Positions 1-64,000 of a DNA stretch of 64,000 bases are shown piece by piece. This stretch comes from Methanothermococcus okinawensis IH1 (GTDB lineage: Archaea > AGJL01 > Methanococci > Methanococcales > Methanococcaceae). The DNA lies in contig NC_015636.1 in the NCBI RefSeq assembly GCF_000179575.2, positions 186,001 through 250,000 of the forward strand. The letters are read 5' to 3'. The notes below the pieces were generated by a model that saw nothing but the letters and a program-made list of their open reading frames with translations, did not search any database and was not told the DNA's origin. A program made the position numbers and the translations under genes. Within the stretch, counting starts at the first letter, position 1. Each line of letters begins with the position of its first letter.

Positions 1-605
1 GGCCAGCAGAAATCATAGAAAATCCAGAAACTAAAAATCTAACTATAAGGGCGGAAGATACATTACTTGGGGAATTGATTGAAAAAGAATACGATATGGT
101 GGTTCTCTCAGTGGGTATGGTGCCTGCAAAATCTATGGATGAAGTTCAGAAGATTTTTGCCATCTCAAAATCAGCAGACGGGTTCTTTATGGAAGCTCAC
201 CCAAAACTTAAACCTGTTGATACAGCCACGGATGGTATTTATCTTGCAGGGGCCTGTCAAGGACCTAAGGATATTCCAACATCGGTTGCACAAGGTTCAG
301 CAGCAGCATCACGGGCTGCAATACCTATGGCTAAGGGAGAGGTTAATGTTGAACCTATAATCGCTGAGGTAAATGAGGATATTTGTGGAGGTTGTGGTGT
401 CTGCGTAAAACAGTGTCCCTACGGAGCTCCTATAATGGTAGAAAAAGAAAATGGAAAACTTGTAGCAAATGTTATTTCGGCATTGTGCAAGGGATGTGGA
501 ACCTGTGCAGCAGGATGTCCAAGTGGTGCTATGGAACAACATCACTTTAAAACTATTCAATTATTTAATCAGATTGAAGGGGCATTTAAAGACCCAGCTA
601 ATTAA
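1..605 (+). CDS. hdrA: Heterodisulfide reductase subunit A, C-terminal part (left end cut by window)
   Basis: The frame is open from base 3 and has no proper start in the window; about 200 residues are visible. HdrA is the flavin subunit that bifurcates electrons in reduction of the CoM-S-S-CoB heterodisulfide. The visible part has the end of the FAD domain ([22 protein letters not shown], written here only as a landmark near base 250-310) followed by two ferredoxin-type clusters, [11 protein letters not shown] and [11 protein letters not shown], each with four cysteines spaced CX2CX2CX3C. This order is that of HdrA. It is followed 88 bases later by fwdB on the same strand, which fits the known association of Hdr with formylmethanofuran and formate dehydrogenases in Methanococcus. 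The N-terminal half lies outside the window, so whether it is a Sec- or Cys-type HdrA cannot be told. Confidence 0.93.
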
Positions 606-693
606 TACATAAATATTAATGTAAATAAATATTTAATTTTAATTTTTAATTTAATTTTTAATTTTAATAATAATTAGTGTATGTGGTGATTAC

Positions 694-1998
694 ATGAAAA
701 TTGTCAAAAATGTTGTATGTCCTTTCTGCGGCACCCTATGTGATGACTTGGAAATTATGGTTGAAGATGGACACATAGTTGGAACAAAAAATGCTTGCAG
801 AATAGGAAATGCAAAATTCATGCATTTTGAAGGTGCTGTAAGATATACAGAACCTTTAATGAGAGAAAATAAAAAAGACGACTTCAAAAAAACAGATTAT
901 GAAACTGCAATAGAAGAAACTGCAAGATTATTGGTAGAATCGAAATTACCTTTGATATACGGGTTTTCAACCACAGAATGTCATGCACAGGCTTATGGCA
1001 TGGAATTAGCTGAAAAAGTTAGAGGTATTATAAGTAATACCGCAGAAGTTTGCCATGGACCGAGTGTTTGGGCTTTACAAGATGTAGGATACCCAGTTTG
1101 CACCCTTGGAGAAGTTAAAAACAGAGCTGATGTTGTTATATTTTGGGGCTCAAACCCAATGCATGCTCACCCAAGACATATGAGTAGATATTCAATATTT
1201 TCCAGAGGATTTTTCAGAGAAAGAGGAAGACACGACAGAACAATGATTGTTGTAGACCCAAGAAAAACCGACACTGCAAAATTGGCAGATATTCATTTAC
1301 AGGTTGAACCTCATAAGGATTATGAATTAATAAGTGCTATGAGGGCTGTATTAAAAGGCTTTGAATTGGAAGTGGATGAAGTTGCAGGTGTTCCATCTGA
1401 AACCATCTACGAAGCTGTGGATATCTGTAAAAATGCCCAGTTCGGACAATTGTTCTTTTCCATGGGAATGACTCAATCAAAAGGAAAACACAGAAACATT
1501 GACAATGCCATTGAGCTTGTTATTGACTTAAATGCCCATACAAAATTTGGTTTAATGCCAATGAGAGGACACTACAATGTAAATGGTTTTAACCAAGTAT
1601 GCACCTGGATAAGTGGTTATCCATTATGTGTCGATTATACAAGGGGATATCCAAGATACAACCCAGGGGATTCAAGTATTACAGATTCATTAATGAGGGA
1701 AGAGGGGGATATAATGCTAAACATAGCCTCTGACCCAGGAGCTCACTTCCCACAAAAAGCTGTTAAACACATGGCAAAAATCCCTCTGGTATGTATTGAC
1801 CCTCACCAAACACCAACATCAGAATTGGCAAACATTATAATTCCTCCTGCAATAGCAGGTGTTGAGGTTGATGGAACAGCATATAGGATGGATGGAGTTC
1901 CAATAGAACTTAGAAAAGTAATTGATGCACCAGAAGGTGTATTACCAGATAGTGAAATCCTAAAAATGTTGATGAAAAAAGTCGATGAAATGATGTAA
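694..1998 (+). CDS. fwdB: Formylmethanofuran dehydrogenase subunit B, Cys type
   Basis: This is the catalytic tungsten/molybdenum pterin subunit for CO2 reduction to formylmethanofuran, the first step of methanogenesis. The protein has 434 residues, the usual length for FwdB/FmdB, which lacks the dinucleotide-binding domain supplied by subunit D. Residues C9, C12, C16 and C35 form the [4Fe-4S] site. The metal ligand is C120 in VCHGPSVWALQD, encoded by TGC, so this copy is the cysteine form and not the selenocysteine form found in some methanococci. A GGTG site precedes the ATG by six bases. The gene sits between hdrA and a formate-dehydrogenase-like pair and may be co-transcribed with hdrA. 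I cannot separate tungsten (fwd) from molybdenum (fmd) isoenzyme from sequence alone. Confidence 0.93.
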   Translation: MKIVKNVVCPFCGTLCDDLEIMVEDGHIVGTKNACRIGNAKFMHFEGAVRYTEPLMRENKKDDFKKTDYETAIEETARLLVESKLPLIYGFSTTECHAQAYGMELAEKVRGIISNTAEVCHGPSVWALQDVGYPVCTLGEVKNRADVVIFWGSNPMHAHPRHMSRYSIFSRGFFRERGRHDRTMIVVDPRKTDTAKLADIHLQVEPHKDYELISAMRAVLKGFELEVDEVAGVPSETIYEAVDICKNAQFGQLFFSMGMTQSKGKHRNIDNAIELVIDLNAHTKFGLMPMRGHYNVNGFNQVCTWISGYPLCVDYTRGYPRYNPGDSSITDSLMREEGDIMLNIASDPGAHFPQKAVKHMAKIPLVCIDPHQTPTSELANIIIPPAIAGVEVDGTAYRMDGVPIELRKVIDAPEGVLPDSEILKMLMKKVDEMM

Positions 1999-2043
1999 TT
2001 GTTTATTTTGGGAGTTATTATTAATATTATTATAACTTCCATT

Positions 2044-2052
2044 ATTTTTTTA
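2044..2052 (+). terminator. T-tract downstream of fwdB
   Basis: A run of seven or more T follows fwdB after about 45 bases. Archaeal termination commonly uses such U-tracts without a hairpin. It is followed by 190 bases of featureless AT-rich DNA before the next gene. Confidence 0.35.
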
Positions 2053-2255: not shown

Positions 2256-3377
2256 ATGGAAATTAAGCATGCGATATGTCCAGTATGTGGTGTTGGTTGT
2301 GGTATAGACTTAATAGTAAAAGATGGTAAGGTAATAGGAACTTACCCATACAGAAGAAATCCCATAAATGAGGGAAAAAATTGTATCAATGGAAAGGAAT
2401 GTTATAAAATCATAAATGATAAAAATAGATTAAAAACCCCGCTAATAAGAAAAAATGTGGAATTTATTGAATCAAACTGGAATGATACATTGGAGTTGGT
2501 GTCTAAAAAATTAAAAACTTATAATCCAGACGAAATTGCCATTATAGGTTCTGGAAAATGCACAAATGAAGATAACTATGCTTTGAAAAAATTGGCAGAT
2601 AATCTAAATGTCAAGAATATTGGAGTTTGTATATGCAATTCTCCAAAAATTGATTTAAATAAAGAGATAGCCTCTTATGATGATGTCGAAAATAGCAAAT
2701 TTATTTTAATTCTTGGAGATATATTTGGAGAAAGTCCTCTAATTGGAAGAAGAGTTATTAAAGCAAAGGAAAAAGGGTCTGAAATAATTACTGTAATTGA
2801 AGAAAAAGATATAACCAACAATAAGGTTGGTGAGTTAAATTCCAACAAATTTATAAAAATAAATAATTTTTCCGAATTTTTAAAAAATATAGATAAAGAA
2901 CCATTAAAAAGACTTGATGAGAATTCTATAATAATATTTAACAAAATAATAGAAAGAGAGGATGTAAATTTGGTTTATAATATTTCAGAAAAAACGGGAT
3001 GTAAATTATTGCCTTTATTAAAATACTGCAATACTATGGGAGCAATAAAAATCCTTCCACCGCTGAATAGGAAAGAGATGTTTGACTTAATCAAAGATGT
3101 TAAATGTGCATATATCGTTGGAGAAAATCCTGCATTATACGACAAAGATAATAATATTTTAAAATCCCTCGATTTCCTTGTAGTTCAGGATATATTTTTA
3201 ACTGAAACAGCTCAACTGGCTGATGTTGTATTGCCATCTGCATGTTGGGCTGAAAAGGATGGAACATTTACAAATACCATGGGCACCACTCAAAAGATAA
3301 ATAAAATTATAGGAGCTCCGGGGGAGGCTTTACCCGATTATGAAATAATATCAAAATTGGCAGAAAAAATGAGATGA
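2256..3377 (+). CDS. Shortened formate dehydrogenase alpha-like molybdopterin protein
   Basis: This molybdopterin oxidoreductase homologue has about 373 residues, against roughly 670-690 for FdhA. I start it at 2256, where GGGTG lies just upstream; an earlier ATG at 2244 would contain that site. Residues C8, C11, C15 and C43 give a [4Fe-4S] motif. The region matching the catalytic Cys/Sec-His pair reads CICNSP, so the cysteine (C127) is kept but the expected histidine is asparagine. The C-terminal dinucleotide-binding domain is missing: the protein ends at the usual domain boundary after LPSACWAEKDGTF. It is followed by fdhB. M. jannaschii has, from memory, a similar small fdhA-like gene beside fdhB. 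Formate oxidation is doubtful; an electron-transfer or scaffold role beside Hdr/Fwd is an inference. Confidence 0.8.
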   Translation: MEIKHAICPVCGVGCGIDLIVKDGKVIGTYPYRRNPINEGKNCINGKECYKIINDKNRLKTPLIRKNVEFIESNWNDTLELVSKKLKTYNPDEIAIIGSGKCTNEDNYALKKLADNLNVKNIGVCICNSPKIDLNKEIASYDDVENSKFILILGDIFGESPLIGRRVIKAKEKGSEIITVIEEKDITNNKVGELNSNKFIKINNFSEFLKNIDKEPLKRLDENSIIIFNKIIEREDVNLVYNISEKTGCKLLPLLKYCNTMGAIKILPPLNRKEMFDLIKDVKCAYIVGENPALYDKDNNILKSLDFLVVQDIFLTETAQLADVVLPSACWAEKDGTFTNTMGTTQKINKIIGAPGEALPDYEIISKLAEKMR

Positions 3378-3457: not shown

Positions 3458-4600
3458 ATGGATAAATATCTCTTAGTCCAATCAACAGATGAAAATATAT
3501 TAAAACATGCAGAATGTGGTGGGGCAGTAACTTCGTTATTCAAATATCTACTTGATAAAAAACTTGTTGATGGAGTTTTAACCCTAAAAAAAGGAGAAGA
3601 TGTTTATGACGGAATACCTACTCTTGTAGAAAATTCAGAGGAATTAATACAAACATGCGGTTCATTACACTGTGCTCCAACAAATATTGCTAAAATTATA
3701 AGCAAATATCTATACGATTTAAAGTTAGCAGTAGCTGTAAAACCATGTGATGCTATGGCTATAAAGGAGCTCGAAAAAAGGTATCAAATAAATAAGGATA
3801 ATATCTATACCATAGGTTTAAACTGCGGTGGAACAGTTCCACCCATAACAGCCATAAAAATGATAGAATTATTTTATGATGTAAATCCTGAGGATGTTGT
3901 TAAGGAAGAAATAGATAAAGGAAAATTTATAATTGAATTAAAGGATGGAACAGAAAAAGGAATAAAAATAGATGAATTGGAAGAAAAGGGATATGGTAGA
4001 AGAAAAAACTGTCAAAGATGTGAATTAAAAATACCAAGAAATGCCGATATCGCCTGTGGAAATTGGGGGGCAGAGAAAGGATGGACTTTTGTTGAAGTGT
4101 GTTCAGAAAAAGGAAGAGAGTTAATTGAAAGTGCTGAAAAAGAAGGATATATTAAGATTAAAACCCCATCTGAAAATAACATTAAAATCAGAGAAAAGAT
4201 TGAAAAAATTATGATTAAATTATCCAAATCATCTCAAAAGAAACAGCTTGAAGAGGAATATCCATCCATTGAAAAATGGAATGAGTATTGGAACAGATGT
4301 ATAAAATGCTACGGTTGTAGGGATGTCTGTCCAATATGTTTCTGTAAGGAATGTGTTTTAAATGAGGATTATGTAGATAAAGGAAAAATTCCACCAGACC
4401 CTATAATGTTCCAAGGTATAAGGCTATCCCACATGAGTTTTAGCTGTGTAAATTGCGGTCAGTGTGAGGATGTCTGTCCAATGGAGATTCCATTGAGCTG
4501 TATATATCATAGAATGCAGTTAAGGTATAGAGACACTGTTGGATTTATACCTGGTGTAGATGATGAGCTCCCTCCAATGTATGGTTCGGAAAAGGAGTAA
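3458..4600 (+). CDS. fdhB: F420-dependent formate dehydrogenase beta subunit (FrhB family)
   Basis: The 380-residue protein belongs to the FrhB/FdhB family that passes electrons between FAD, F420 and iron-sulfur clusters. The N-terminal part has the family signature ECGGAVTSL and conserved cysteines around residues 67-72 and 97. The C-terminal part has two ferredoxin clusters: C281, C284, C287, C291 and C330, C333, C336, C340. The ATG is preceded by AGGTGAT. It lies 80 bases after the shortened FdhA-like gene, and both probably work with the Hdr-Fwd genes upstream. It looks intact, in contrast to its FdhA-like partner. Coenzyme F420-reducing hydrogenase beta is the closest alternative, but the FdhA-like neighbour favours FdhB. 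Confidence 0.88.
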
Positions 4601-6116: not shown

Positions 6117-6554
6117 TTATTTTTTTAGAAATTTTGACAGAGCTCTGATTATATCCCCATCAGATACAACACCAATTAACTTATTATTTTCATCTACAAC
6201 AGGAAGTTGATTTATTATCTCACCTTTATGCCCGTATTCGTCCATTCTTCTTATGGCTTCAATGATTGATTTATTTGAGGTTATTGTAATTACATCCTTT
6301 GTCATAACATCGCTAACTTTCGTATCAAGGGTGTATTCATCCAATATTAAATTATATCCAATATCGGTGGTAGTAATAATGCCAATTACTTTTTTATCCT
6401 TATCTACAACAGGTAGGCAACTTATTTTGTATTTTAAAAGAGTTTCAAATGCTTTAACTACGCCAGTATCGGGGTGAGTATATATAACATCTTTTGCCAT
6501 AATGTCCTTAATTTTGATATTAAATATATTTGATATATCCTCATGCTTTTTCAT
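6117..6554 (-). CDS. Protein of two CBS domains
   Basis: The protein has about 145 residues and consists almost only of two CBS domains, roughly residues 14-70 and 78-140, which usually bind adenine nucleotides or S-adenosylmethionine derivatives. Repeated [16 protein letters not shown] and [16 protein letters not shown] patterns mark the two halves. I start at the ATG at 6554 because AAGGAGGG lies just upstream; the longer frame to 6608 begins with an unrelated hydrophobic stretch. It is a single gene, convergent with the binding protein and divergent from the DUF1611 gene. Its target is unknown. Confidence 0.85.
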
Positions 6555-6808: not shown

Positions 6809-7729
6809 ATGATTATAAAAACGGCAAAATTATCTCACAAAAACAAGATTTCGGATGGATTAAAAAAATTTGCCAATATATCCATAATAGGATATGGATG
6901 CATAAGCTCAGGTATTTATCAAAGTAATAATACTATTAATAATAAAAATAATAGTGCTACCAATAATAATTACGATACATTTATCTGGACAAAGGAAATT
7001 CTTGAATCATCAGAGGTAGAAATTTGGAAAAAAACTATTATAAATGAGATAAAAAATGGTAAAAATATATACAATATGGCAAGACTTTATAGAATAACCG
7101 ATTATAAGGAGCTCGTAGATTTTGCCAAAATACATAATGTTGAATTTTTCGATTGTTCAAATCCCAATTTGTTTGATGAATATAAAGAATATGCCAAAAT
7201 GGGATTAAATGGTATCGATTCAAAGGTAATTACAATAATGGGAACAGGAAGGCAATGTGGGAAATTTACCACATCTATGGTTTTAAAACATGAGCTCGGA
7301 AAATATTTTAAGGTAGGCACAGTCGGAACAGAACCGCAATCTAAATTATGCGGAATAGATGAGATGGTAATACCACAACTTGTTCCCACATGCCATGTTG
7401 CTTCTACAATATTTGGGGCTATTAAAAAAGTTGATTTGAATAATAACGATGTAATTATTGTATCTGGACAAACAGGTATATTTTCGAATCCATTAGAGGT
7501 TGGAACTGGAAGAGGGGGGGGCGTTATTAGTATAGCTATTCTTCTCGGTTCAAATCCTGATTATATTATACTCGCATCAAATACTGATGACATAAACTGC
7601 ATAAAAAAGAATATAAACACCATAGAATTATTAAGTGGTAAAAAGGTTATTGGAATTACCATAAACGGCAAAAATTTTAAAGATAAAAAAATTTTAAAAA
7701 CTTATTGGATGATATATCCTATAAATTAA
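6809..7729 (+). CDS. DUF1611 family P-loop protein, C-terminus frameshifted
   Basis: The 306-residue reading frame matches the DUF1611 family (some bacterial members, DgcN, act in D-glutamate metabolism; the archaeal role is unknown). It has a P-loop GTGRQCGKF at residues 145-153 and conserved stretches GTVGTEPQSKLCGIDEMV and GQTGIFSNPLEVGTGRGGG. The last residues, ILKTYWMIYPIN, are not family-like. One base behind, from about 7702, the sequence reads on as LLDDISYKLNIPVADVITG to a stop at 7846-7848, which resembles the expected end of the family. The slip falls in an A-rich run near 7685-7700. So the gene is frameshifted near its end, or the sequence has an error there. An Asn-rich insert occupies residues 39-55. 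Confidence 0.8.
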   Translation: MIIKTAKLSHKNKISDGLKKFANISIIGYGCISSGIYQSNNTINNKNNSATNNNYDTFIWTKEILESSEVEIWKKTIINEIKNGKNIYNMARLYRITDYKELVDFAKIHNVEFFDCSNPNLFDEYKEYAKMGLNGIDSKVITIMGTGRQCGKFTTSMVLKHELGKYFKVGTVGTEPQSKLCGIDEMVIPQLVPTCHVASTIFGAIKKVDLNNNDVIIVSGQTGIFSNPLEVGTGRGGGVISIAILLGSNPDYIILASNTDDINCIKKNINTIELLSGKKVIGITINGKNFKDKKILKTYWMIYPIN

Positions 7730-9089: not shown

Positions 9090-10296
<1,207 letters not shown>

Positions 10297-10393: not shown

Positions 10394-10798
10394 ATGGATT
10401 CGTTTTTAACAGATACTCAAATAAAAGTATTAAAATTAAGAAAAAAGGGATTAACTCAGGAAGAAATAGCAAAAATGATGAATACAAGCAGAGCAAATAT
10501 AAGTATGATAGAAAAAAGGGCAAAGGAAAATGTGGAAAAGGCAAGAAATACTTTAAGGATTTACAACGATATAATTTCTCCTGTAAAATTAACCATCAAA
10601 GAAGGTGTTGATGTTTTTGATATTCCAAAAATGGTATTCAAAACCTCCGATGAAAATGATATTCATGTAAAATATAGCTCATTGGAAATACTTGATTTAA
10701 TACACAAAAATGTGAAGGATAACATCAATAAAAGAATTGTTAAAAAACCATTCATAATAAATATTCTTGAAGATGGCGAGCTCTCATTTATTGAATAA
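10394..10798 (+). CDS. tfx: Tfx-type DNA-binding transcriptional regulator
   Basis: The 134-residue protein starts with a helix-turn-helix (residues 6-45, LTDTQIKVLKLRKKGLTQEE then IAKMMNTSRANISMIEKRA) followed by the Tfx C-terminal domain. In Methanothermobacter, Tfx binds the promoter of the molybdenum formylmethanofuran dehydrogenase operon. fwdB lies 8 kb upstream here, so control of it is possible but not shown. It shares orientation with prs and pelota. Confidence 0.88.
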   Translation: MDSFLTDTQIKVLKLRKKGLTQEEIAKMMNTSRANISMIEKRAKENVEKARNTLRIYNDIISPVKLTIKEGVDVFDIPKMVFKTSDENDIHVKYSSLEILDLIHKNVKDNINKRIVKKPFIINILEDGELSFIE

Positions 10799-10876: not shown

Positions 10877-11923
10877 ATGAAAATTATTAAGGAAATACCT
10901 GAAAAAAATATAATTAAAGTGATGCCTGAGAACTTGGATGACCTTTGGCATCTTTACAATATTATTGAAAAAAACAGTGCAGTATCTGCCATGACAGAAC
11001 GAAGGGTTGAAGATAAAGGAGACAAATTAAGGGCTGATAGAGGAGCAAAAAAAAGGGTATATTTAGGAATTAAGGCAGAAAAAATAAATTTTCATGAGGA
11101 TACAAATAGGTTGAGGGTAAGTGGTAAGATAATATATGGTCCAGATGATATTCCATTAGGTTCCTATCATACAATTGATATAGAGCCATATACAGAGGTA
11201 TCTATCCAAAAAAATTGGAAAAGATGGGATTTAGAACGGTTAAAAGATGCAGAAAATTCTGCGAAAAAGCCAAAGGTTGTAATAGTTATCATGGATGAGC
11301 TCGAAGCAAATATATATTTAGTTAGAGAATATGGTGCTAAGGAAGTAGCACATATAAAATCAAGTCTGTCAAAGAGATTAAATTACAAACAACAGGAACA
11401 AGAAAAATTAAGTTATTATAATGAAATAGCAAATGCAATAAGTCAATATGAGGGTAAAATTCTTGTAGCAGGTCCAGGATTTGGAAAAAATAATTTTCAA
11501 AAATATTTATCTGAAAAATATAACGATATCTATCAAAGAACCATATTTGAATCTACAAACCATACTGGAAGATTGGGACTTAATGAAGTTTTAAAATCCG
11601 GAATAATCGATAGGATATATGGTGAGGCAAGATTAAGTAAAGAAACTCAACTTGTAAATAAACTTTTAGAAGAGATTTCAAAAAGGGGTCTTGCAGTTTA
11701 TGGATTTGATGATGTTAAGAATGCTTTAAACTACTCTGCAATAGAAACACTTCTTATAACGGATGAATTTTTGAGAAAAAATAGGAAAAAGATGGAAAAT
11801 ATTGTAAATTCAGTTGAGAATATTGGTGGAAAAACCGTAATTATATCCACAGAACACGATGCAGGAAAACAGTTAAAGGGTCTTGGTGGAATAGGAGCAA
11901 TATTAAGATTTCCTATTGAATAA
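10877..11923 (+). CDS. pelA: Pelota (Dom34) ribosome rescue factor
   Basis: The protein of 348 residues has the three domains of archaeal Pelota: an N-terminal Sm-like domain (MKIIKEIPEKNIIKVMPENL start, with EDTNRLRVSGK), a central domain (VVIVIMDELEANIYLV, ILVAGPGFGKNNF) and an eRF1-like C-terminal domain (ALNYSAIETLLITDEFLR). It works with aEF1A to release stalled ribosomes. It sits alone after tfx. Confidence 0.95.
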   Translation: MKIIKEIPEKNIIKVMPENLDDLWHLYNIIEKNSAVSAMTERRVEDKGDKLRADRGAKKRVYLGIKAEKINFHEDTNRLRVSGKIIYGPDDIPLGSYHTIDIEPYTEVSIQKNWKRWDLERLKDAENSAKKPKVVIVIMDELEANIYLVREYGAKEVAHIKSSLSKRLNYKQQEQEKLSYYNEIANAISQYEGKILVAGPGFGKNNFQKYLSEKYNDIYQRTIFESTNHTGRLGLNEVLKSGIIDRIYGEARLSKETQLVNKLLEEISKRGLAVYGFDDVKNALNYSAIETLLITDEFLRKNRKKMENIVNSVENIGGKTVIISTEHDAGKQLKGLGGIGAILRFPIE

Positions 11924-15222: not shown

Positions 15223-16233
<1,011 letters not shown>

Positions 16234-42538: not shown

Positions 42539-42674
42539 GTTAAAATCAGACCATTGATGGATGGAAATTCTTGGAATTTCATTTATATGTTCATCTTTAA
42601 CATATTGTTAAAATCAGACCATTGATGGATGGAAATTCTTGGAATTTCATTTATATGTTCATCTTTAACATATT
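42539..42674 (+). repeat. Tandem duplicated repeat-spacer unit
   Basis: The spacers at 42569-42606 and 42637-42674 (38 bases each, starting TCTTGGAATTTCATTTAT) are identical. A whole 68-base repeat-spacer unit was duplicated. Confidence 0.95.
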
Positions 42675-50962: not shown

Positions 50963-51124
50963 ATAACCAGTAATTAAAAATAATTAAAAATAATTAAAAA
51001 ATAATAATAAATAATAAAAATTTTTTAATTTCTTCGGAGCTCTATAAATTATTATTATATGGCCTGTAAAAAAGATGTTAATATAATTAATTGAAAAATA
51101 AAAAAATAAATGAAATACTATTGT

Positions 51125-52270
51125 TTATTCCATGTCCCCTCTTTCTCTTGTTTTTTCCAATTTTTTAACTTTTTCAGTATCTACGAATCTATCTTTTAAT
51201 GCCTCCATTATCTGAGGAATGGAGGAATATTCCATCATAGATTCTGGCAATCTGTGTGGCTGGAATGGTCCCATGCTTCTTATCATATCTGCCATATCCA
51301 AAGCCTTCTGTCTTGCATTGTTGAATGAAATATCTGCGAATAAATCATTAGGTCCTACCAATCTTCCTTCTGATAGTTGGAATCCTAATGCCATTATTCT
51401 TGGTGGTCCATCAAATCTTGAAGGTCTTGCGTCATCTTCACCAACAGGCATTAATGGTCCCCAATGACATCCTCTCATCCATCCTGGAACAAGATGAGGT
51501 GTTGCAAATGCTTCCAATACTTCACCAACTGCTGGCATACCACTCTGAGCTCTTACAATTGCAACAGGGTCATCCTTACCTACATATTTTCCAGCCATTA
51601 AGTTCAATTTTTCGGAGCTTGCAATTGCTGCAATTTCGTTATCTTTTGCTCTGAATACTCTTTTTACAGCATATTTTTCTAAGTTTCCGATTAATGCCAA
51701 TAAAGAGTAAGATTCTTCTGGTGTTTTTAAGGTAATTTGTTTATTTCCATACATGTCCAATACATCGAATTTAAATCCACCAGTCATGGAGTTATCATAA
51801 ACTAATCCTGCTGTATGGAATGGGTCTGCAAATATCTTGTAGAATGGCATGTTAAATGCTGTTGGGTCTGTTTTATCACAGCAAAATACTATTACAGGCT
51901 CACTTGGTCTTTCAACAAATTCCATTTCAGCACATCCTGGACCCATACCTTTTACATTTCCTGTGAATCCTTCTGCAAGTAAATCCTGACCTGCACCGTA
52001 TAATTTTAATTCCTTAGCAACTTCTGTTGCTTCTTCAAATGCTTTCCATGCTAAGCCGTGTATATTTTCATTATCTGTTCCGAGTTTGTGGGTCATGATT
52101 AAATCTATATCATCACCACATCTTGTGACATAATAGTCAATTAATAACTCATCAATAGCCTCTTCAAGAACATATTCACAGGTGTCTAACAATTCATCTG
52201 GTGCCAAGGTGTGTCCGCACAATCCTCCAACATCAGCTTTGATAACGCTTAGGGTTATTTTTTCTTCCAT
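51125..52270 (-). CDS. fbp: Fructose 1,6-bisphosphate aldolase/phosphatase (class V)
   Basis: The bifunctional archaeal gluconeogenic enzyme condenses triose phosphates and removes the C1 phosphate. The protein has 381 residues from ATG 52270, preceded by GAGGGCGTGAT. Markers are ITLSVIKADVGGLCGHTL at the N-terminus, KGMGPGCAEMEFVERPSEP and GWMRGCHWGPLMPVG, with Asp-rich metal sites. Codon use and the strong ribosome site suggest high expression. It stands alone. Confidence 0.96.
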   Translation of the reverse strand: MEEKITLSVIKADVGGLCGHTLAPDELLDTCEYVLEEAIDELLIDYYVTRCGDDIDLIMTHKLGTDNENIHGLAWKAFEEATEVAKELKLYGAGQDLLAEGFTGNVKGMGPGCAEMEFVERPSEPVIVFCCDKTDPTAFNMPFYKIFADPFHTAGLVYDNSMTGGFKFDVLDMYGNKQITLKTPEESYSLLALIGNLEKYAVKRVFRAKDNEIAAIASSEKLNLMAGKYVGKDDPVAIVRAQSGMPAVGEVLEAFATPHLVPGWMRGCHWGPLMPVGEDDARPSRFDGPPRIMALGFQLSEGRLVGPNDLFADISFNNARQKALDMADMIRSMGPFQPHRLPESMMEYSSIPQIMEALKDRFVDTEKVKKLEKTRERGDME

Positions 52271-52617: not shown

Positions 52618-53658
52618 ATGCAATCGTTTAAAATCGCAAGGGTTATGGGGATTCCAATTGAACTTCATATCACATTTATTTTGCTTTTAATATTGGTATA
52701 TTATTTTTGGGATATTGGAGGTTTTATATTATATGTATTTCTATTTACATCCGTAGTTTTGCATGAATTGGGTCATTCATATGTGGCTAAGAAATATGGG
52801 GTGCATATAGAGAAAATTCTTCTTCTTCCAATAGGTGGAATGGCTATGATGGATAGAATTCCAAAAGAAGGAGAATTTAAGATAGCTATTGCTGGACCTA
52901 TTGTAAGCATTATTTTAGGGATTTTATTTTTAGGGCTATCGACTTTTATGGATTTTAATATTCTAAAAATTGATAATATGGTATATCCGTTATTTATGAC
53001 TGTTGGCGTGTTAAATCTCATGTTGGGAGTATTTAATTTGCTTCCTGCATTTCCCATGGATGGTGGAAGGGTATTGAGAGCTCTGATTTCACATAAGGTG
53101 GGGTATTTAAAAGCTACAAAAATAGCCTCCACCATTGGGCAATATCTTTCATTGATTATGCTTGGTTTTGGTATTATATCATTAAATATTATATTGATTT
53201 TAATAGCCATCTTTATATATTATGGAGCTTCTCAGGAGTATCACGCCTTATTATCTCATGATGTATTCAATAAAATAAAGGTTAAAGACATCATGTCAGA
53301 AGATATAGTATCGGTTTCACCAGATGATTCTATCAAAGATTTGGTAGATTTAATGTTTAAATATAAGTATATGGGTTATCCAGTAGTTAAAGATGGAAAA
53401 CTTGTAGGTAGCGTTTCTTTTAATGATATAAGAAATGTTGATGAAAATATATCGGTAAAAGACATTATGAAACCTCCTATTGTGGTATCTAAAAATATGG
53501 ATTTAAACGACCTTTTGCTTAAAATGGGTAATTCTGAGCGGGCTTATGTTGTAGAAAACAATAAGTTGAAAGGTATTATCTCAAAAACAGACATAATTAG
53601 AATATTAAAATTATTGGGATTAAAAAGATATGAGGATAATGAAAATAATAAAAAATAA
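52618..53658 (+). CDS. Site-2 protease-type M50 metalloprotease with CBS domains
   Basis: The 346-residue membrane protease has zinc motif HELGH at residues 49-53 within a hydrophobic segment and the second site LLPAFPMDGGRVL. About six membrane segments occupy residues 15-205, and two CBS domains (DIMSEDIVSVSP, DIMKPPIVVSK) occupy about 220-340. Such proteins cut within the membrane, with the CBS part sensing nucleotides. It resembles, from memory, MJ0392. Its substrate is unknown. It stands alone, convergent with the ribosomal protein genes. Confidence 0.9.
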   Translation: MQSFKIARVMGIPIELHITFILLLILVYYFWDIGGFILYVFLFTSVVLHELGHSYVAKKYGVHIEKILLLPIGGMAMMDRIPKEGEFKIAIAGPIVSIILGILFLGLSTFMDFNILKIDNMVYPLFMTVGVLNLMLGVFNLLPAFPMDGGRVLRALISHKVGYLKATKIASTIGQYLSLIMLGFGIISLNIILILIAIFIYYGASQEYHALLSHDVFNKIKVKDIMSEDIVSVSPDDSIKDLVDLMFKYKYMGYPVVKDGKLVGSVSFNDIRNVDENISVKDIMKPPIVVSKNMDLNDLLLKMGNSERAYVVENNKLKGIISKTDIIRILKLLGLKRYEDNENNKK

Positions 53659-55313: not shown

Positions 55314-55883
55314 CTATTTATTCTGTTTTTCTTTTTTCTTCTTTTTATCCTCTTCTATCCATTCCAGTTTTCCCAATCCCGGCTGTCTCATAGTCAGTGC
55401 TATTTTACTACCTCTTTTTTTAGCTTCCCTTAAACTAACTGCTACGATTCTCGCTCTTACTCTATCTCCTTTTTCGATTACTCTTCCCGTTTCTTTTCCA
55501 ATTATGGCTTCTCTTTTTGGGTCATAAGATACATAATCATCCATAATCTGAGATATATGTATAAGTCCATCGAGAGGACCTAACCTTATAAAAACACCAA
55601 ATTCCACAACATCAACAACTTCTCCCTCTACAACCTCATAGAGCTCAGGCATATAACATAAAACATCAAAAATTGCTGGGTGATATGCAGCACCATCTCC
55701 ATATATTACTTTGCCCTCTCCAATTTCTTTTATTTCACCTATTGATAGTATAAAGCCCATATCTTTATCAAGTATGCCTTCATATTTTTTCATAAGTATA
55801 TTATGGAGACTTTCATTTAGCGGAGCTCCGAACATATATGGAGGTACTCTTACAGTGTCTGAAATAGTTATTAATTTATACAA
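55314..55883 (-). CDS. rpoE: RNA polymerase subunit Rpo7 (E')
   Basis: The 189-residue stalk subunit has the N-terminal RNP-like domain (MYKLITISDTVRVPPYMFG) and a C-terminal S1 domain (GEVVDVVEFGVFIRLGPLDGLIHISQIMDD). The tail is Lys/Glu-rich. It forms the polymerase stalk with Rpo4 and binds the emerging RNA. GGTGATTATTTGT precedes the ATG. It is the first gene of the five-gene cluster. Confidence 0.95.
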   Translation of the reverse strand: MYKLITISDTVRVPPYMFGAPLNESLHNILMKKYEGILDKDMGFILSIGEIKEIGEGKVIYGDGAAYHPAIFDVLCYMPELYEVVEGEVVDVVEFGVFIRLGPLDGLIHISQIMDDYVSYDPKREAIIGKETGRVIEKGDRVRARIVAVSLREAKKRGSKIALTMRQPGLGKLEWIEEDKKKKKEKQNK

Positions 55884-56462: not shown

Positions 56463-58121
56463 ATGAATGGATTCAATAAAAATGCCCTCGATGATTCCAC
56501 ATATAAAAAATTTATAAGATGCATAATTGATAAATTACTTGCAAATAAAAATAATTTGAACGCATTACCCCCAAAAAGAAAAAAACAAAAGGTTGAGGAT
56601 ATTAAAGCACAATGTTTAAGGAAATTTAACTTAAATATAGGTTTTCCCCCTAATTCTGAAATAATAAAATATGCAACAGATGAGGAGAAAAAGGATATTA
56701 TTCCGATTATTAGAAAAAAACCTATTAGAACATTATCTGGGGTAGCTGTTGTGGCTGTAATGACCTCTCCTGAGAAATGCCCCCATGGAAAATGTTTATT
56801 CTGTCCAGGAGGAACTGAAAGCACTTTTGGAGATGTTCCTCAGAGTTATACAGGTAGAGAACCTGCCACAATGAGAGGTCTTATGTATAAATTTGACCCT
56901 TACACTCAGACAAAAGAACGAATAGAGCAACTTGAAAAGGTGGGACATCCAACAGATAAGATAGAACTGATTATAATGGGGGGAACATTTCCTGCAAGAC
57001 CTACTGAATACCAGGATAATTTTATAAAAGGATGCTTCGATGCTATGAATGGTACAATATCTGAAACACTTGAAGAGGCACAAAAAATAAATGAAACTGC
57101 AAAACATAGATGCGTAGCTCTTACAGTTGAAACTAGACCAGACTACTGCAAGGAAAATGAGATAAATCAAATGCTTAAATTGGGAACCACAAGGGTAGAG
57201 CTCGGTGTTCAAACGATATATAACGATATATTATACTATGTAAAAAGAGGGCATACTGTTGAGGATAGCATAAAAGCAACGCAATTATTAAAGGATAGCG
57301 GTTTAAAGGTATCATATCATATTATGCCTGGACTTCCAAAATCATCAAAGGAACTTGATAAAAAGGTATTTTATGAAATATTTAATAATCCAGATTTCAA
57401 ACCAGATTTAATAAAAATATATCCATGTTTGGTAATAAAAGGAACCGAGCTATATGATTTATGGAAAAAAGGGGAATTTAAACCAATAACCGATGAGGAA
57501 GCCGTAGAGCTCATAACCTATGCAAAATCCATAATGCCAAAATGGGTGAGAACTTCAAGAATACAGAGGGATATACCTGCAACAGTAATTGAAGAAGGTG
57601 TTAAAAAAAGTAATTTAGGTGAATTGGTATATAAAAACCTCGATAAAAAGGGCATAAAATGCAAGTGTATAAGATGTAGGGAAGTAGGTCATGTAATGTA
57701 TAAAAAGGGAATAGTTCCCGATATTAACTATATAAAATTATGTAGGGAGGATTATATTGCAAGTGGCGGAAAAGAGATATTCCTATCTTATGAAGATGTT
57801 AAAAATGATATACTTATTGGGTATTTAAGATTAAGGATACCGTATAAACCATTTAGACCAGAGATAGACGATAAAACTGCACTTGTTAGACAGTTGCATG
57901 TATGCGGTCAAGAGCAAAAATTAACCGAAAAAGAAGATAAAGAAAATTCATGGCAACATAGAGGATATGGAAGATTATTACTAAAAGAGGCTGAAAGGAT
58001 AGCAAAAGAGGAATTTGATAAGAATAAACTGCTAATTACAAGTGGTATTGGCGTAAGGGAATATTATAGAAAGTTGGGTTATAAGCGAGTTGGGGCTTAT
58101 ATGGGTAAAGATTTAATATAA
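56463..58121 (+). CDS. elp3: Elp3 tRNA uridine(34) acetyltransferase
   Basis: The 552-residue protein has a radical SAM domain with C106, C111 and C114 in CPHGKCLFCPGG and a C-terminal GNAT acetyltransferase domain (HRGYGRLLLKEAERIA; LGYKRVGAYMGKDL). It modifies U34 of tRNA with carboxymethyl groups. A four-cysteine zinc site (CKCIRCREVG) lies between the domains. GGTGATACT precedes the ATG. Confidence 0.95.
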   Translation: MNGFNKNALDDSTYKKFIRCIIDKLLANKNNLNALPPKRKKQKVEDIKAQCLRKFNLNIGFPPNSEIIKYATDEEKKDIIPIIRKKPIRTLSGVAVVAVMTSPEKCPHGKCLFCPGGTESTFGDVPQSYTGREPATMRGLMYKFDPYTQTKERIEQLEKVGHPTDKIELIIMGGTFPARPTEYQDNFIKGCFDAMNGTISETLEEAQKINETAKHRCVALTVETRPDYCKENEINQMLKLGTTRVELGVQTIYNDILYYVKRGHTVEDSIKATQLLKDSGLKVSYHIMPGLPKSSKELDKKVFYEIFNNPDFKPDLIKIYPCLVIKGTELYDLWKKGEFKPITDEEAVELITYAKSIMPKWVRTSRIQRDIPATVIEEGVKKSNLGELVYKNLDKKGIKCKCIRCREVGHVMYKKGIVPDINYIKLCREDYIASGGKEIFLSYEDVKNDILIGYLRLRIPYKPFRPEIDDKTALVRQLHVCGQEQKLTEKEDKENSWQHRGYGRLLLKEAERIAKEEFDKNKLLITSGIGVREYYRKLGYKRVGAYMGKDLI

Positions 58122-58318: not shown

Positions 58319-58972
58319 ATGAAGTTTTTCTTAGATACTGCAAATGTTGATAAAATTAGAGAATTTGCTGAGATAGGATTGGTTGATGGTGTTACAACAA
58401 ACCCAACACTCATTGCAAAGGAAGGAAGAGACTTCCACGAAGTAATTAAAGAAATATGTTCTATTGTAAAAGGTCCAGTAAGTGCTGAGGTAACGGCACT
58501 TGATGCAGAAGGCATGATAAAAGAAGCAAGAGAGCTCTCAAAACTTGCAGATAATGTTGTGGTTAAAATACCTATGACAAAGGAAGGGTTAAAGGCAGTA
58601 AATGTTTTATCAAAAGAAGGAATAAAAACAAATGTTACTCTTGTTTTCTCGGCAAATCAGGCATTAATGGCTGCAAAAGCAGGAGCTACCTATATATCCC
58701 CATTTGTTGGAAGATTGGATGATATCGGTCAAAACGGTATGCAATTAATAGCAGAAATTGTTCAGATATTCAGAAACTACGACATAAAAACAGAAATAAT
58801 TGTAGCATCGGTAAGACATCCAATGCATGTAATTGAAGCAGCGGAGCTCGGTGCAGATATTGCAACAATTCCATTTGCAGTATTGGACAAAATGTTTAAC
58901 CATCCATTGACAGACAAAGGTATTGATAGATTTATGAAAGATTGGGAAGAATATTTAAAAAATAAGAAATAA
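58319..58972 (+). CDS. tal: Transaldolase / fructose-6-phosphate aldolase family
   Basis: The 217-residue enzyme is of the short transaldolase type. The Schiff-base lysine is K83 in [11 protein letters not shown], and the N-terminal [15 protein letters not shown] and [13 protein letters not shown] are typical. It may act in non-oxidative pentose phosphate chemistry. It is preceded by GGTGAAAAA. It is convergent with the DUF4013 gene after 18 bases. Confidence 0.93.
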
Positions 58973-58990: not shown

Positions 58991-59872
58991 TTAAATTATT
59001 TCTTCTTTTTTACTTATAATCTCATTTATTCTATCCACATAGTAATTGGAGATGGATTTATAAAATACTACCCCTAAGAAGAATGACAAAAAGCCTTTTA
59101 TAATTGCAGATAAAACTGCTGAGCTATACAACACTATAAAGTTAGGAGATAATATATACCATATTGACAATATAGTGGCTGGTAAATTCAGTATTATTTG
59201 AATTATTAAAAATATTATCCACAGTAATATAAGTAAAATAATATATTTTACCGACATCAATTTAAATATTTGTTTGAATTCAAAGACACCTTCAAATCCT
59301 TTTTTAGCAAAATTTACCGTTGCAAGTGGCGTATATATTGCCAAAATAATAAATAATATAAATAATATTGCAATAAACAAAAATATGCCTGCAATAACTG
59401 AACTATTTGGCATGCCTGCTAAATATTGGGGATTTGCTATGCTAACCCATCCTGTAGCTACAAACAATATTGCCATTAACACCACAGGTATTCCAACAAC
59501 TATAAGAGCTAAAATAAGCATGGCTATATAATATATAAATCCGTCTTTAATGAGAGCTCCGAAGTTCTCCCATTCTGGAAGAATATTTATAGAGTTCAAT
59601 GTATGTTTTGATACCTTTATGTAGTAGCCCGTTAATATTATTGAAATTATTATTGTAAATAAAGAAGCCACTATAAATAGGGCAATTATTGGAGTCAAAC
59701 TGCTTATTGAAGGAGCAGATGTGCCAAATCTATGATTAAAACCATCCATCACAGCAGAAAATAAATTAAATGGTAAAATACCTATAATACCCAATACCCC
59801 CCCAACAAATATCTTTTTCCAGTCAGACATGGCATATTCAAATGGTTCTTTAATATATTTATCTACAAACAT
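58991..59872 (-). CDS. DUF4013-type membrane protein
   Basis: The protein has 293 residues from ATG 59872, preceded by GGTGAGCTCTTAT, where the ribosome site overlaps a GAGCTC palindrome. Six or seven hydrophobic segments span it, with the start MFVDKYIKEPFEYAMSDWKK typical of DUF4013 proteins in methanogens. The function is unknown. Confidence 0.75.
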   Translation of the reverse strand: MFVDKYIKEPFEYAMSDWKKIFVGGVLGIIGILPFNLFSAVMDGFNHRFGTSAPSISSLTPIIALFIVASLFTIIISIILTGYYIKVSKHTLNSINILPEWENFGALIKDGFIYYIAMLILALIVVGIPVVLMAILFVATGWVSIANPQYLAGMPNSSVIAGIFLFIAILFILFIILAIYTPLATVNFAKKGFEGVFEFKQIFKLMSVKYIILLILLWIIFLIIQIILNLPATILSIWYILSPNFIVLYSSAVLSAIIKGFLSFFLGVVFYKSISNYYVDRINEIISKKEEII

Positions 59873-60071
59873 ATAAGAGCTCACCCCCAAATTAAAATTT
59901 TAATTATTTTTTTACCCATTACTAACTTATTACTTATTATTAATTAGTTAGTTATTATTCATTTAATTAATTATATATTCATCATATTCTATATTATTTT
60001 ATATGTTATATACTTTATTTTATTCTTATTTATATATATTTTTTAATTACATTATGATTTATTTACAATAT

Positions 60072-61283
60072 CTATAAAAAATAAACCTTTACAATATCTC
60101 CTCCTTCGTATCCTTCAATATTTTCATCAATAAGCACATAACCGTCAGCCTTTGTTATTGAAGATAAAACCCCACTGCCCGTTATCCTCAATGGTTCAAT
60201 ATATGTTTTATTATCTTTATTTATTAATTTTACCCTAACAATATCGGTTCTACCAAGTGTAGATGCAATATTTCTATTTAATGGAAGATAGACATATTTA
60301 CGAGCTCTGAAATAATTTCTAAAAAACAGTTCAAACTGAACCGCAGAAGCCACAGGATAGCCAGAAAGTATAAATACAAATTTTTCTTCATCATTTAGAA
60401 TACTTTTTGCAAATCCAAAAGGTTTTCCAGGTCTTATTTGGACGCCGTGCAATAATAACTTTCCAATTTCTTTGATAGCCTCAATGGTATAGTCCCTATC
60501 CCCGACGGATGTTCCACCTGTGGTAATTACTATATCATTTTCACCAAGTGCCTTTAATATTGAATTTTTTATTTCCTCTTTATTATCCCTTGCTCTTTTA
60601 TATATTGTTGGTGTAAGTCCTATTTCATTTATAAGGGAATAAAGCATAAGGGAATTTGAATTTACTATTTTATATCCATTTTTTAATTCATTTACTGTAT
60701 TAAAGTCATCCAAATCAACCAATTCATCCCCTGTGGATAATAGTCCTATTTTTAAATCATAAACCTTAATATTTTTTATGCCTAAGGACGATAATAACGC
60801 TATATGATACGGCGTGATTACCTCCCCTTTTTTTACAACAATATCTCCTTTTTTTACATCCTCCCCAACTCTTGCCACATTTTCATAAGGGTGAGCTCCC
60901 CTTCTAACCTCTATAAATCCATCTTCTTCGATGCAATATTCCTTCATCACTACGGCATTAGCTTCTTTTGGAAGGGGCATTCCTGTGGATAATTTCACAC
61001 ATTCATCAGTTTTAATTATATTATTTGTATTATCTATTAAATTTAGGATTATAGGATTAGTTTCAGATGCTCCAAAGGTATCTTCTGCTATTACAGCATA
61101 TCCATCCATTGCAGATTTATCAAACATGGGCAAATCTGTTGGAGCTCTTATATCCTCAAAAGAAATTTTGTTATAGGAGCTCCGAATATCAACAACTTTA
61201 TATTTATATCTCATTAGTTCATTAAAACTATTAAATATAATATTTTTAGCATCATTATAGCTAATTAGGTCTTTTAGAAGCAT
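60072..61283 (-). CDS. moeA: Molybdopterin molybdenumtransferase MoeA
   Basis: The 403-residue enzyme inserts molybdate or tungstate into molybdopterin, the cofactor needed by FwdB. Visible parts are DLPMFDKSAMDGYAVIAEDT, the loop ITTGGTSVGDRDYT and GYPVASAVQFELFFRNY. GGGTGTTAAAT precedes ATG 61283; the longer frame is three codons. It is an isolated gene here. Confidence 0.93.
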   Translation of the reverse strand: MLLKDLISYNDAKNIIFNSFNELMRYKYKVVDIRSSYNKISFEDIRAPTDLPMFDKSAMDGYAVIAEDTFGASETNPIILNLIDNTNNIIKTDECVKLSTGMPLPKEANAVVMKEYCIEEDGFIEVRRGAHPYENVARVGEDVKKGDIVVKKGEVITPYHIALLSSLGIKNIKVYDLKIGLLSTGDELVDLDDFNTVNELKNGYKIVNSNSLMLYSLINEIGLTPTIYKRARDNKEEIKNSILKALGENDIVITTGGTSVGDRDYTIEAIKEIGKLLLHGVQIRPGKPFGFAKSILNDEEKFVFILSGYPVASAVQFELFFRNYFRARKYVYLPLNRNIASTLGRTDIVRVKLINKDNKTYIEPLRITGSGVLSSITKADGYVLIDENIEGYEGGDIVKVYFL

Positions 61284-61642: not shown

Positions 61643-61706
61643 TAATATATTTATTATTTTTATTTTTATTTCTTATAAATTATATTAAATTATTTAAGGC
61701 GATGAT

Positions 61707-62684
61707 ATGAATAACGATTTAAGACCTATTATATGGGATGATGACAATAAACAATTGATATTAATTGACCAGAGAAAACTTCCAAATAGTTTAGAGTATT
61801 ATACCTGTAAAAACTATCATGATGTTGCATTTGCCATTAAAAACATGGTTGTAAGGGGAGCTCCTGCAATAGGAGTATCCGCAGCATACGGTATGGCGCT
61901 TGCTGAATTACACAACAGCAGCAGGGATTATATAGAAAAAGCATATAATGAGTTAAAAAACACGAGACCAACCGCTGTAAATTTGTTTTGGGCTTTGGAT
62001 AGGTGTATAGAAGCATACAATAATAAATCTTCCATAATGGAGGAAGCTAAGAGGATTCACAAAGAAGATATCGAAGTATGTAAAAAAATAGGGCAAATAG
62101 GAGAAAAGATTATCGATGATGGAGATACTATTTTAACACACTGTAATGCAGGAGCTCTTGCAACTTCGGCATATGGGACGGCATTAAGTGTTATTAGGTT
62201 CGCATACTATAACAACAAAAAAATTAATGTTATAGCAGATGAAACAAGACCAAGACTACAAGGTGCAAAATTAACGGCATTTGAACTTAATTATGAAGGC
62301 ATTCCTGTTAAAGTTATTCCTGATAATACCGCTGGTTTTTTAATGAAAAAGGGCATGGTTGATAAGATTGTAGTTGGGGCAGATAGGGTTTTAAGGGATT
62401 ATACTGTGTTTAATAAAATAGGCACTTATTCCCTTGCAGTTCTTGCAAAATACCACAATGTACCATTTTATGTGACAGCACCCTATTCAACATTTGATTT
62501 TAAGAACAACATTGAGGATATTACAATTGAAGAAAGGGATGAAAAGGAGGTTATATATATAGACGGCGTTAGAATAATTCCAGAAGGTGTTTCGGCATAT
62601 AATTATGCGTTTGATGCCACACCAGCAGAGTTAATCACTGGAATAATCACTGAGAAGGGCATAATTCATCCAAATAATAGATAG
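61707..62684 (+). CDS. mtnA: Methylthioribose-1-phosphate isomerase / eIF2B-like
   Basis: The 325-residue protein belongs to the MtnA/eIF2B-alpha superfamily. It has MVVRGAPAIGVSAAYG, the catalytic cysteine in THCNAGALAT, and the acidic residue in VVGADRVLRDYTVFNKIGTY. It isomerises methylthioribose 1-phosphate in methionine salvage. A purine-rich AAGGCGATGAT precedes the ATG. The leader may be structured. Confidence 0.9.
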   Translation: MNNDLRPIIWDDDNKQLILIDQRKLPNSLEYYTCKNYHDVAFAIKNMVVRGAPAIGVSAAYGMALAELHNSSRDYIEKAYNELKNTRPTAVNLFWALDRCIEAYNNKSSIMEEAKRIHKEDIEVCKKIGQIGEKIIDDGDTILTHCNAGALATSAYGTALSVIRFAYYNNKKINVIADETRPRLQGAKLTAFELNYEGIPVKVIPDNTAGFLMKKGMVDKIVVGADRVLRDYTVFNKIGTYSLAVLAKYHNVPFYVTAPYSTFDFKNNIEDITIEERDEKEVIYIDGVRIIPEGVSAYNYAFDATPAELITGIITEKGIIHPNNR

Positions 62685-62931
62685 TCAATAATAAAATAAT
62701 AAAATCGAAATAAATAATAAATAATAATTAAGTATTGTTGGATTAAATAGAAGTAAAAAATAAAAGATAAAAAAATAAATGGAAAATACGAAAAAATATT
62801 TATAATGTAAATTACCTTTAAGTTATGGTTCATTCTATATTGGATGTTTATAATTATAATTTATTTATACTCCATAAATCATTAAATGAAACTTAATATT
62901 TAAAATATTAAAAAATAAAAAGGATGATAAT

Positions 62932-64000
62932 ATGTATATATTAGGAGATTGGAGAAGAACGCACTTTTCAAATGAAATAACACCAGAAATGGATGGAGAA
63001 GAAATCATTGTTATGGGATGGACTCATTCCATAAGAAAATTGGGAAAATTGGTATTTATTATATTGAGAGATAGAGAGGGAACAGTTCAAATAGTAGTTC
63101 CTAAACAAAAGGTATCCGAAGAGGTATTCACCACGGCAAAATCCGTAGGAAGGGAAGATGTAATTGCTATAAAAGGTAAAGTTGTGGCAAATGAAAAGGC
63201 ACCAGCAGGATTTGAAATAATACCAGTTGAAATTAGAATATTGAATAAGGCAGAAACACCACTTCCATTAGACCCATCCGAGAAGGTTCCCGCTGATATT
63301 GATACAAGATTGGATAGAAGATTTTTAGATTTAAGAAGACCAAAAATACAGGCATTATTTAGATTAAGGTCTGAAATGTTAAAATCAGTAAGAGATACAT
63401 TTTACAATAATGGATTTATTGAGGTAAATACTCCAAAACTTGTAGCAAGTGCAACAGAGGGAGGAACAGAATTATTCCCAATATCCTATTTTGATAGGGA
63501 GGCATTTTTAGGTCAAAGTCCGCAGTTATACAAACAGATGATGATGGCAGCAGGATTTGATAGGGTATTTGAAATTGGACCTATATTCAGAGCAGAGGAA
63601 CACAACACAAGAAGACATTTAAACGAGGCCATATCTATTGACTGTGAAATGTCATTTTCAGATGAAAAGGATGCCATGAATGTTCTTGAAAATGTGGTTC
63701 ATAATGTATTTGTTGATTTGTATGAAAATAACCAGAAGGAGCTCCGAACATTAGATATAAATTTAAATGTTCAAGAAACACCATTTCCAAGAGTAACCTA
63801 TACAGAAGCAGTTGATATTGTAAATTCAAAAGGAATCGATATGGAATGGGGTGAAGACTTTTCAAGGGCTGCTGAAAAAATACTTGGGGATTCTATGGAA
63901 GGATTCTATTTTATCACAGAGTGGCCAACTGAAACAAGACCATTCTATACACTTCCAAATCAGGAAAACCCTAAAATCTGTAAGGCTTTTGATTTAATGT
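62932..64000 (+). CDS. aspS: Aspartyl-tRNA synthetase, N-terminal part (right end cut by window)
   Basis: The frame begins at ATG 62932 with AGGATGATA upstream and remains open to the window end (about 356 codons). It has the OB-fold anticodon domain ([40 protein letters not shown]) and class II motifs: motif 1 region [26 protein letters not shown], and motif 2 [17 protein letters not shown]. It is the archaeal type and may charge both tRNA-Asp and tRNA-Asn; the deciding residues are not assessed. Confidence 0.95.

Follow-up and report, generated by a model that had tools for sequence, protein, structure and literature searches.

GAGCTC, a highly iterated palindrome of Methanothermococcus okinawensis, and what may keep it in the genome

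What keeps a short palindrome in a genome far above its chance frequency? The question is raised by a stretch of 64,000 nucleotides from Methanothermococcus okinawensis IH1 (the window: positions 186001-250000 of the larger contig, the chromosome C2), the proteins of which are archaeal and methanogen-like (aRF1, ELP3, TruD, a molybdopterin oxidoreductase) and where exact word count finds GAGCTC 80 times. The first-pass annotation of this sequence had about 79 sites, against about 4 expected from base composition. The latter figure computes to 3.7, an order-2 Markov model gives 5.5, and dinucleotide-preserving shuffles 3.25 +/- 1.95, none of them (0/100) reaching 80. As had been said, no other palindrome stands out among the enriched 6-mers of the window, the remaining over-represented 6-mers stemming from an array of clustered regularly interspaced short palindromic repeats (CRISPR).

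Count and placement of the word

The window sites are as follows (position in the window, strand, feature; "." is the strand given for all; assignments to intergenic DNA follow the list of open reading frames, ORFs). The two close pairs already remarked upon (14587/14594 and 29061/29073) are both real. Three sites had been placed outside coding sequence: 25295 and 51037 are indeed intergenic, 59877 lies just inside a possible ORF start, and the tally was too low, with 14995 also intergenic and 39458 and 42057 in CRISPR spacer DNA.

424..429,., GAGCTC site
1739..1744,., GAGCTC site
3313..3318,., GAGCTC site
3767..3772,., GAGCTC site
4565..4570,., GAGCTC site
6140..6145,., GAGCTC site
7109..7114,., GAGCTC site
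7292..7297,., GAGCTC site
9502..9507,., GAGCTC site
9752..9757,., GAGCTC site
10778..10783,., GAGCTC site
11297..11302,., GAGCTC site
14114..14119,., GAGCTC site
14305..14310,., GAGCTC site
14587..14592,., GAGCTC site, close pair with 14594
14594..14599,., GAGCTC site, close pair with 14587
14636..14641,., GAGCTC site
14803..14808,., GAGCTC site
14995..15000,., GAGCTC site, intergenic (ORF list)
15444..15449,., GAGCTC site
15744..15749,., GAGCTC site
15792..15797,., GAGCTC site
16929..16934,., GAGCTC site
17213..17218,., GAGCTC site
17959..17964,., GAGCTC site
18077..18082,., GAGCTC site
19175..19180,., GAGCTC site
22044..22049,., GAGCTC site
22278..22283,., GAGCTC site
23264..23269,., GAGCTC site
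23511..23516,., GAGCTC site
24066..24071,., GAGCTC site
24240..24245,., GAGCTC site
25295..25300,., GAGCTC site, intergenic (ORF list)
25441..25446,., GAGCTC site
25679..25684,., GAGCTC site
26137..26142,., GAGCTC site
26485..26490,., GAGCTC site
26922..26927,., GAGCTC site
27454..27459,., GAGCTC site
28023..28028,., GAGCTC site
28730..28735,., GAGCTC site
29061..29066,., GAGCTC site, close pair with 29073
29073..29078,., GAGCTC site, close pair with 29061
29604..29609,., GAGCTC site
30882..30887,., GAGCTC site
31052..31057,., GAGCTC site
32023..32028,., GAGCTC site
32556..32561,., GAGCTC site
37504..37509,., GAGCTC site
37800..37805,., GAGCTC site
37899..37904,., GAGCTC site
39458..39463,., GAGCTC site within CRISPR spacer DNA (over-long, fused-looking spacer)
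42057..42062,., GAGCTC site, end of CRISPR spacer
45068..45073,., GAGCTC site
45342..45347,., GAGCTC site
46161..46166,., GAGCTC site
47403..47408,., GAGCTC site
47779..47784,., GAGCTC site
49065..49070,., GAGCTC site
49419..49424,., GAGCTC site
50562..50567,., GAGCTC site
51037..51042,., GAGCTC site, intergenic (ORF list)
51547..51552,., GAGCTC site
53078..53083,., GAGCTC site
55641..55646,., GAGCTC site
55823..55828,., GAGCTC site
57198..57203,., GAGCTC site
57507..57512,., GAGCTC site
58532..58537,., GAGCTC site
58844..58849,., GAGCTC site
59554..59559,., GAGCTC site
59877..59882,., GAGCTC site, extreme start of possible ORF, may be non-coding (ORF list)
60302..60307,., GAGCTC site
60893..60898,., GAGCTC site
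61142..61147,., GAGCTC site
61177..61182,., GAGCTC site
61858..61863,., GAGCTC site
62152..62157,., GAGCTC site
63739..63744,., GAGCTC site

The over-representation is real and strong in the whole genome, which is complete at 1,677,455 bases (chromosome C2, 1,662,525; plasmid C1, 14,930). GAGCTC occurs there 2,070 times (2,057 chromosomal copies and 13 plasmid ones), or about 1,240 per Mb. A genome-wide comparison with Markov models had been proposed at the outset; with the sites masked, orders 1-3 predict 64-80 copies on the chromosome, an excess of 26-32 fold. It is the sole strongly enriched 6-mer palindrome genome-wide, and the notable strongly enriched 8-mer palindromes all contain it. 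No earlier report of GAGCTC as an iterated word was found in the literature searched, subscription papers aside.

The most ordinary explanation would make the word a by-product of codon usage or base composition. Re-drawing synonymous codons chromosome-wide, from pools themselves inflated by GAGCTC sites, predicts 150 coding sites against 1,939 observed, so that the finding survives a codon-aware model. Intergenic DNA is enriched no less than coding DNA (120 sites versus 2.3-6.4 expected, alongside 1,939 versus about 135), the word is GC-rich in genomes that are AT-rich, and its mirror image CTCGAG has only 6 copies in the genome. Together with the masked Markov counts, the re-drawing and the intergenic enrichment refute this cause, which retains practically no probability.

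The effect goes rather the other way. Every reading phase is used, as first noticed in the window, the coding sites being divided 1040/676/223 among the three frames. Glu-Leu is indeed written GAG-CTC in spite of disfavour: CTC is a rare codon, and 47% of its occurrences in the genome (1,047 of 2,211) lie within GAGCTC. The word writes 28% of Glu-Leu pairs, 76% of [Gly/Arg]-Ala-[Leu/Pro/His/Gln/Arg] triplets and 19% of suitable Ser-Ser contexts. It appears to pull the amino-acid sequence too, since Glu-Leu pairs exceed expectation in genomes rich in the word (observed/expected 1.24, 1.33 and 1.14) and not in G028, a relative without it (0.82). At the sites, residue identity is neither above nor below the average of the gene.

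Sites succeed one another at a mean spacing of 808 bp with a coefficient of variation (CV) of 1.03, near Poisson, and no regular spacing was found across the chromosome; pairs less than 20 bp apart are fewer than expected (22 versus 50). Gaps of more than 5 kb are present, the largest being of 10.5 kb (C2:1338009-1348548), and these may be recent arrivals. No class is preferred among convergent, divergent and tandem intergenic regions (0.45 per kb in convergent ones, 0.38-0.50 elsewhere). The plasmid, which had no match in a plasmid collection, is enriched as well (13 sites versus 1.2 expected, P 6e-10). So, weakly, are the CRISPR spacers: the 246 scored spacers of six arrays, counted without an over-long window spacer that holds another site, contain 4 copies in 9.2 kb, against 0.4-0.66 expected (P 0.005). 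Spacers being a record of DNA that has entered the host, such DNA also seems to bear the word, the number being small.

Carriers, dialects and turnover

High copy numbers are met in four of the 36 Methanococcales genomes compared: M. okinawensis (2,070), G023 (1,645), G033 (1,515) and G029 (1,315), the other 32 having 4-229. The four carriers are related heat-loving methane-making archaea, a Methanothermococcus-type lineage; G023 we take to be M. aeolicus, presumably strain Nankai-3, an assumption that leans in part on the near absence of ACGT from it (0.02). In a PurL tree M. okinawensis groups with G029, the other carriers being G023 and G033, the latter of another genus, and a sub-clade of non-carriers (G030, G031, G026, G028, G022, G024, G025, G032) is nested among them. 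With the other family as outgroup, the simplest history that this single gene tree allows would be a single gain and a single loss; GAGCTC seems to go back to the ancestor of the carrier group and to have disappeared from one sub-clade.

Alignable sites of M. okinawensis are shared with G023 or G033 in 26-27 of 100-122 cases, and with G028 in 1 of 81. At conserved Glu-Leu pairs the sharing of GAGCTC is above independence (odds ratios about 4 and 2), and between close relatives, in a small sample at 74-89% nucleotide identity, 6 of about 15 aligned sites are kept. Judged from alignments, the sites turn over, and their abundance seems to reflect an equilibrium in which a force of ln 2.7-4.2 (natural-log units) acts on each site. 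Something must be keeping GAGCTC in carrier genomes.

What is kept is longer than six bases. The flank bias is symmetric, so that extensions keep the palindrome, and the longer form GGAGCTCC makes up 335/2070, 1259/1645, 184/1315 and 191/1515 of the sites of M. okinawensis, G023, G029 and G033, i.e. 77% in G023 versus 13-16% in the other three. In M. okinawensis it is found 332 times where chance gives 10.6, and the two flanks vary independently, which is what two half-sites would give (their product predicts 312 for the 332 observed); bases beyond a flank of this type favour CG and CT, CG reaching 12% versus 1.1% in the background. The word is shown to be (C)GGAGCTCC(G), 8-10 bp, in which the inner six bases weigh most and the weight of the outer ones varies by species.

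Cores with one mismatch are overall neither enriched nor depleted (observed/expected 1.0). Those flanked by G...C are enriched in M. okinawensis (2.1-3.0x), G033 (2.3-3.5x) and G023 (1.6-3.2x), and not in the non-carrier G028 (1.0x); all-or-none recognition was withdrawn on this account. Among the near-misses of M. okinawensis, changes at the core A are not enriched, and some at the outer and central G are. As the near-misses are enriched solely with G...C flanks, in carriers and not in G028, a graded reading of the 8-10 bp symmetric word is suggested, to which it must be added that decayed sites would also give some excess. The pattern needs symmetric recognition of the word in the DNA of both chromosome and plasmid.

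Several word-less relatives strongly avoid AGCT or AAGCTT (G026, G027, G028, G030, G031 and G034, the last lying outside the non-carrier sub-clade and avoiding AGCT too; in G028, AGCT 339 versus 2,766 expected), which points to past or present AGCT-specific restriction. Present-day AGCT restriction alone was rejected as the cause of the loss, G022, G024, G025 and G032 being word-less without clear AGCT avoidance. TGCA is about two-fold over-represented in the first 920 kb of G028 (2,730 versus 1,275), more mildly in G033 and M. okinawensis.

Methylation, restriction and the likeness to cyanobacterial palindromes

The highly iterated palindromes (HIPs) of cyanobacteria, HIP1 (GCGATCGC) and its alternates, are likewise short palindromes far above expectation (PMC4390886). 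The resemblance to HIP1 proposed by the first-pass annotation holds for the anatomy: a comparable density (300-2,700 per Mb for HIP1; PMC4390886), a site about every kb whether the DNA is coding or not, palindromic flank extensions that vary by species, and clade-wide presence with sporadic loss. The word is another one and the host an archaeon. What HIP1 does in cyanobacteria is not yet settled. The leading model, that of Elhai, connects these palindromes with a methyltransferase and with mismatch repair: every cyanobacterial genome with HIP-type words has a putative methyltransferase matching them, and methyl-directed mismatch repair, or selection on the mark, would keep the modified sites (PMC4390886). 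The common anatomy, palindromic extensions included, is an argument for extending this model to GAGCTC, and a role in DNA methylation or methyl-directed repair, with a cognate orphan methyltransferase, had been put forward for the window.

Whole-genome family and motif searches found no orphan or cognate GAGCTC methyltransferase in the complete genome, the motif scan covering ORFs of at least 70 amino acids up to the last 42.5 kb of the chromosome, where family searches only apply. The DNA methyltransferases found in M. okinawensis are one D12 (Dam-type) enzyme beside a DpnII endonuclease (C2:275948-277706, outside the window), two Type I systems (HsdM with HsdS and HsdR), and one Eco57I/MmeI-like protein of the plasmid; each is part of a restriction system or Type IIG-like. 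Family searches also rule out an orphan D12, N6/N4 or C5 enzyme common to carriers: no D12 enzyme is shared (G023 and G033 are without a strong match), nor any N6/N4 enzyme, and no C5 enzyme was found in M. okinawensis, G023, G029 or the whole genus of M. okinawensis, the only one of G033 being of a kind widespread in the order. No DNA-type PF01555 enzyme was found in M. okinawensis, where the sole match is a THUMP-domain RNA-methyltransferase-like protein. None of the carriers has MutS or NucS, so that the methyl-directed mismatch-repair model is inapplicable as stated. Finally, the methylome of M. aeolicus PL15, obtained by single-molecule real-time (SMRT) sequencing, comprises CTAG, GTNAC, GCACY and CGAG, with 5-methylcytosine (m5C) at ACGT by homology, and holds no GAGCTC motif, although SMRT sees m5C poorly and the strain may differ from G023 (PMC10113651). 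Keeping of GAGCTC by methylation is nearly refuted and, in our estimation, highly improbable; the suggestion made for the window goes unsupported.

GAGCTC works like a HIP and is filed as a presumably methylation-free variant, because the methyltransferase that accompanies cyanobacterial HIPs (in all HIP genomes of PMC4390886) was looked for and not found. The same pattern being present here without matching methyltransferase, MutS or NucS, it is unlikely that iterated palindromes depend on methylation in every case.

Several side observations belong to these searches. The Eco57I/MmeI-like protein of the 14.9 kb plasmid (C1:5124-8597) is a large methylase and is likely to be a Type IIG restriction enzyme. 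Those remaining hidden-methyltransferase candidates of the motif scan that were checked turned out to be a peptidase, PheRS, a nitrogenase-like protein, a PKD protein, CheX and a topoisomerase. At C2:1354835-1357401, two neighbouring, duplicated proteins (511 and 344 amino acids) without Pfam match have the same SPPYYGYIMN stretch (SPPY motif).

As a six-base palindrome GAGCTC is also akin to restriction-modification sites of the SacI type. Such targets are depleted in M. okinawensis, whereas GAGCTC is enriched and no matching enzyme was found. As a case in point, GATC is nearly absent (108 versus 4,299 expected), which fits the Dam-type methyltransferase adjoining the DpnII endonuclease. Words of the CTNNAG and GTNNAC types are nearly absent from genome and window alike (genome-wide, CTTAAG 14 versus 398, GTTAAC 12 versus 306, GTAAAC 10 versus 331, CTAAAG 21 versus 372), and ACGT, CTAG, GTAC, GGCC and GCGC are almost missing from the genome; no matching methyltransferase was found for any of these.

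What may keep the word

Among the roles first suggested for the word, we favour recombination or gene transfer. The candidate explanation that we place first, at a probability of about 0.38, is a transfer drive that also makes a mark of self-DNA. A DNA-recognising factor with two equal half-sites would read the word, base methylation not being involved, and cells of the carrier lineage would preferentially take up, protect or recombine DNA bearing it. New copies would then spread through populations, replacing the allele devoid of a copy, as in the DNA uptake sequences of Neisseria and Haemophilus, and the word would come to double as a mark of self. Loss of the reader in sub-lineages would entail loss of the word, and altered outer contacts of the reader would produce the GGAGCTCC dialect.

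Within the order, type IV-like pili are known to mediate natural transformation (PMC10133366), and biased uptake or recombination is favoured because dialects, transfer-competent relatives, the spacer signal and uneven spacing fit it. We also count on its side the excess in coding and intergenic DNA and in the plasmid, independent flanks, near-misses with G...C flanks, the Glu-Leu excess, and the lack of methyltransferase and mismatch repair. The DNA uptake sequences (DUS) of Neisseriaceae and uptake signal sequences (USS) of Pasteurellaceae similarly have thousands of copies within and between genes (PMC3630211, PMC1939737, PMC7811141), with species dialects around a fixed core, which agrees with a transfer drive; they also have near-miss copies, to which the near-misses of GAGCTC with G...C flanks may correspond. 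Dialects peculiar to a lineage are characteristic of uptake sequences (PMC3630211).

Several points weigh against this explanation. Known uptake sequences are non-palindromic and paired in inverted orientation at terminators, whereas GAGCTC is palindromic and has no such association, convergent intergenic regions being no richer in it than others. The near-misses in excess may be former sites in decay and not targets of weak recognition, and the spacer count is small (4 sites). No receptor or reader gene for GAGCTC was found, and competence of M. okinawensis is putative; although competence is documented in M. maripaludis (PMC10133366), the genomes compared from outside the carrier group show no enrichment of GAGCTC.

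Ranking next and nearly as likely, if improbable taken alone, is a binding site for a genome-wide structural, replication, repair or segregation protein with two half-sites, where selection for coverage would maintain about one site per kb. The symmetric, graded motif and its independent half-sites suit such a protein, as do the spread of the word over the whole chromosome and plasmid and its loss in sister lineages, which would follow loss of the protein. The spacing, uneven and near Poisson (CV 1.03, largest gap 10.5 kb), does not point to selection for coverage, the CRISPR spacers have their excess too, and no candidate protein was identified.

Two further explanations are considerably less probable. 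In the first, a neutral mutational or repair bias, an enzyme would convert near-matching words to GAGCTC without benefit or transfer, which could account for a word common to the plasmid and for average residue conservation at the sites, suggestive of no special functional placement. Such a converter should deplete its substrates, and one-mismatch words are not depleted overall; different base substitutions would all have to be corrected toward one word, and mismatch repair of neither the MutS nor the NucS type exists here. The second, which we put slightly lower, sees a self-mark against an internal defence nuclease that would spare DNA bearing the word, in the manner of Chi. Plasmid and spacer DNA do bear it, and sister lineages would have shed it once the nuclease disappeared. 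The Chi sites known to date lack symmetry and have a direction, unlike the palindromic GAGCTC, and no nuclease was identified.

To return to the transfer drive, its boldest form would make GAGCTC a methylation-free, dialect-forming self-DNA word and the first archaeal uptake or recombination sequence, with a predicted symmetric receptor, that has reshaped much of Glu-Leu and Gly/Arg-Ala coding; we hold this as a tentative proposal, on balance doubtful. With related carriers and non-carriers, a dialect and a transformable order, the question of HIP function becomes directly testable here.

The CRISPR array of the window (38600-45000; C2:224644-230898) has about 93 repeats GTTAAAATCAGACCATTGATGGATGGAAAT, and the same repeat is found in five further arrays elsewhere in the genome. 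A stretch at window position 38611 is repeated exactly at 39477, adjoining an over-long spacer.

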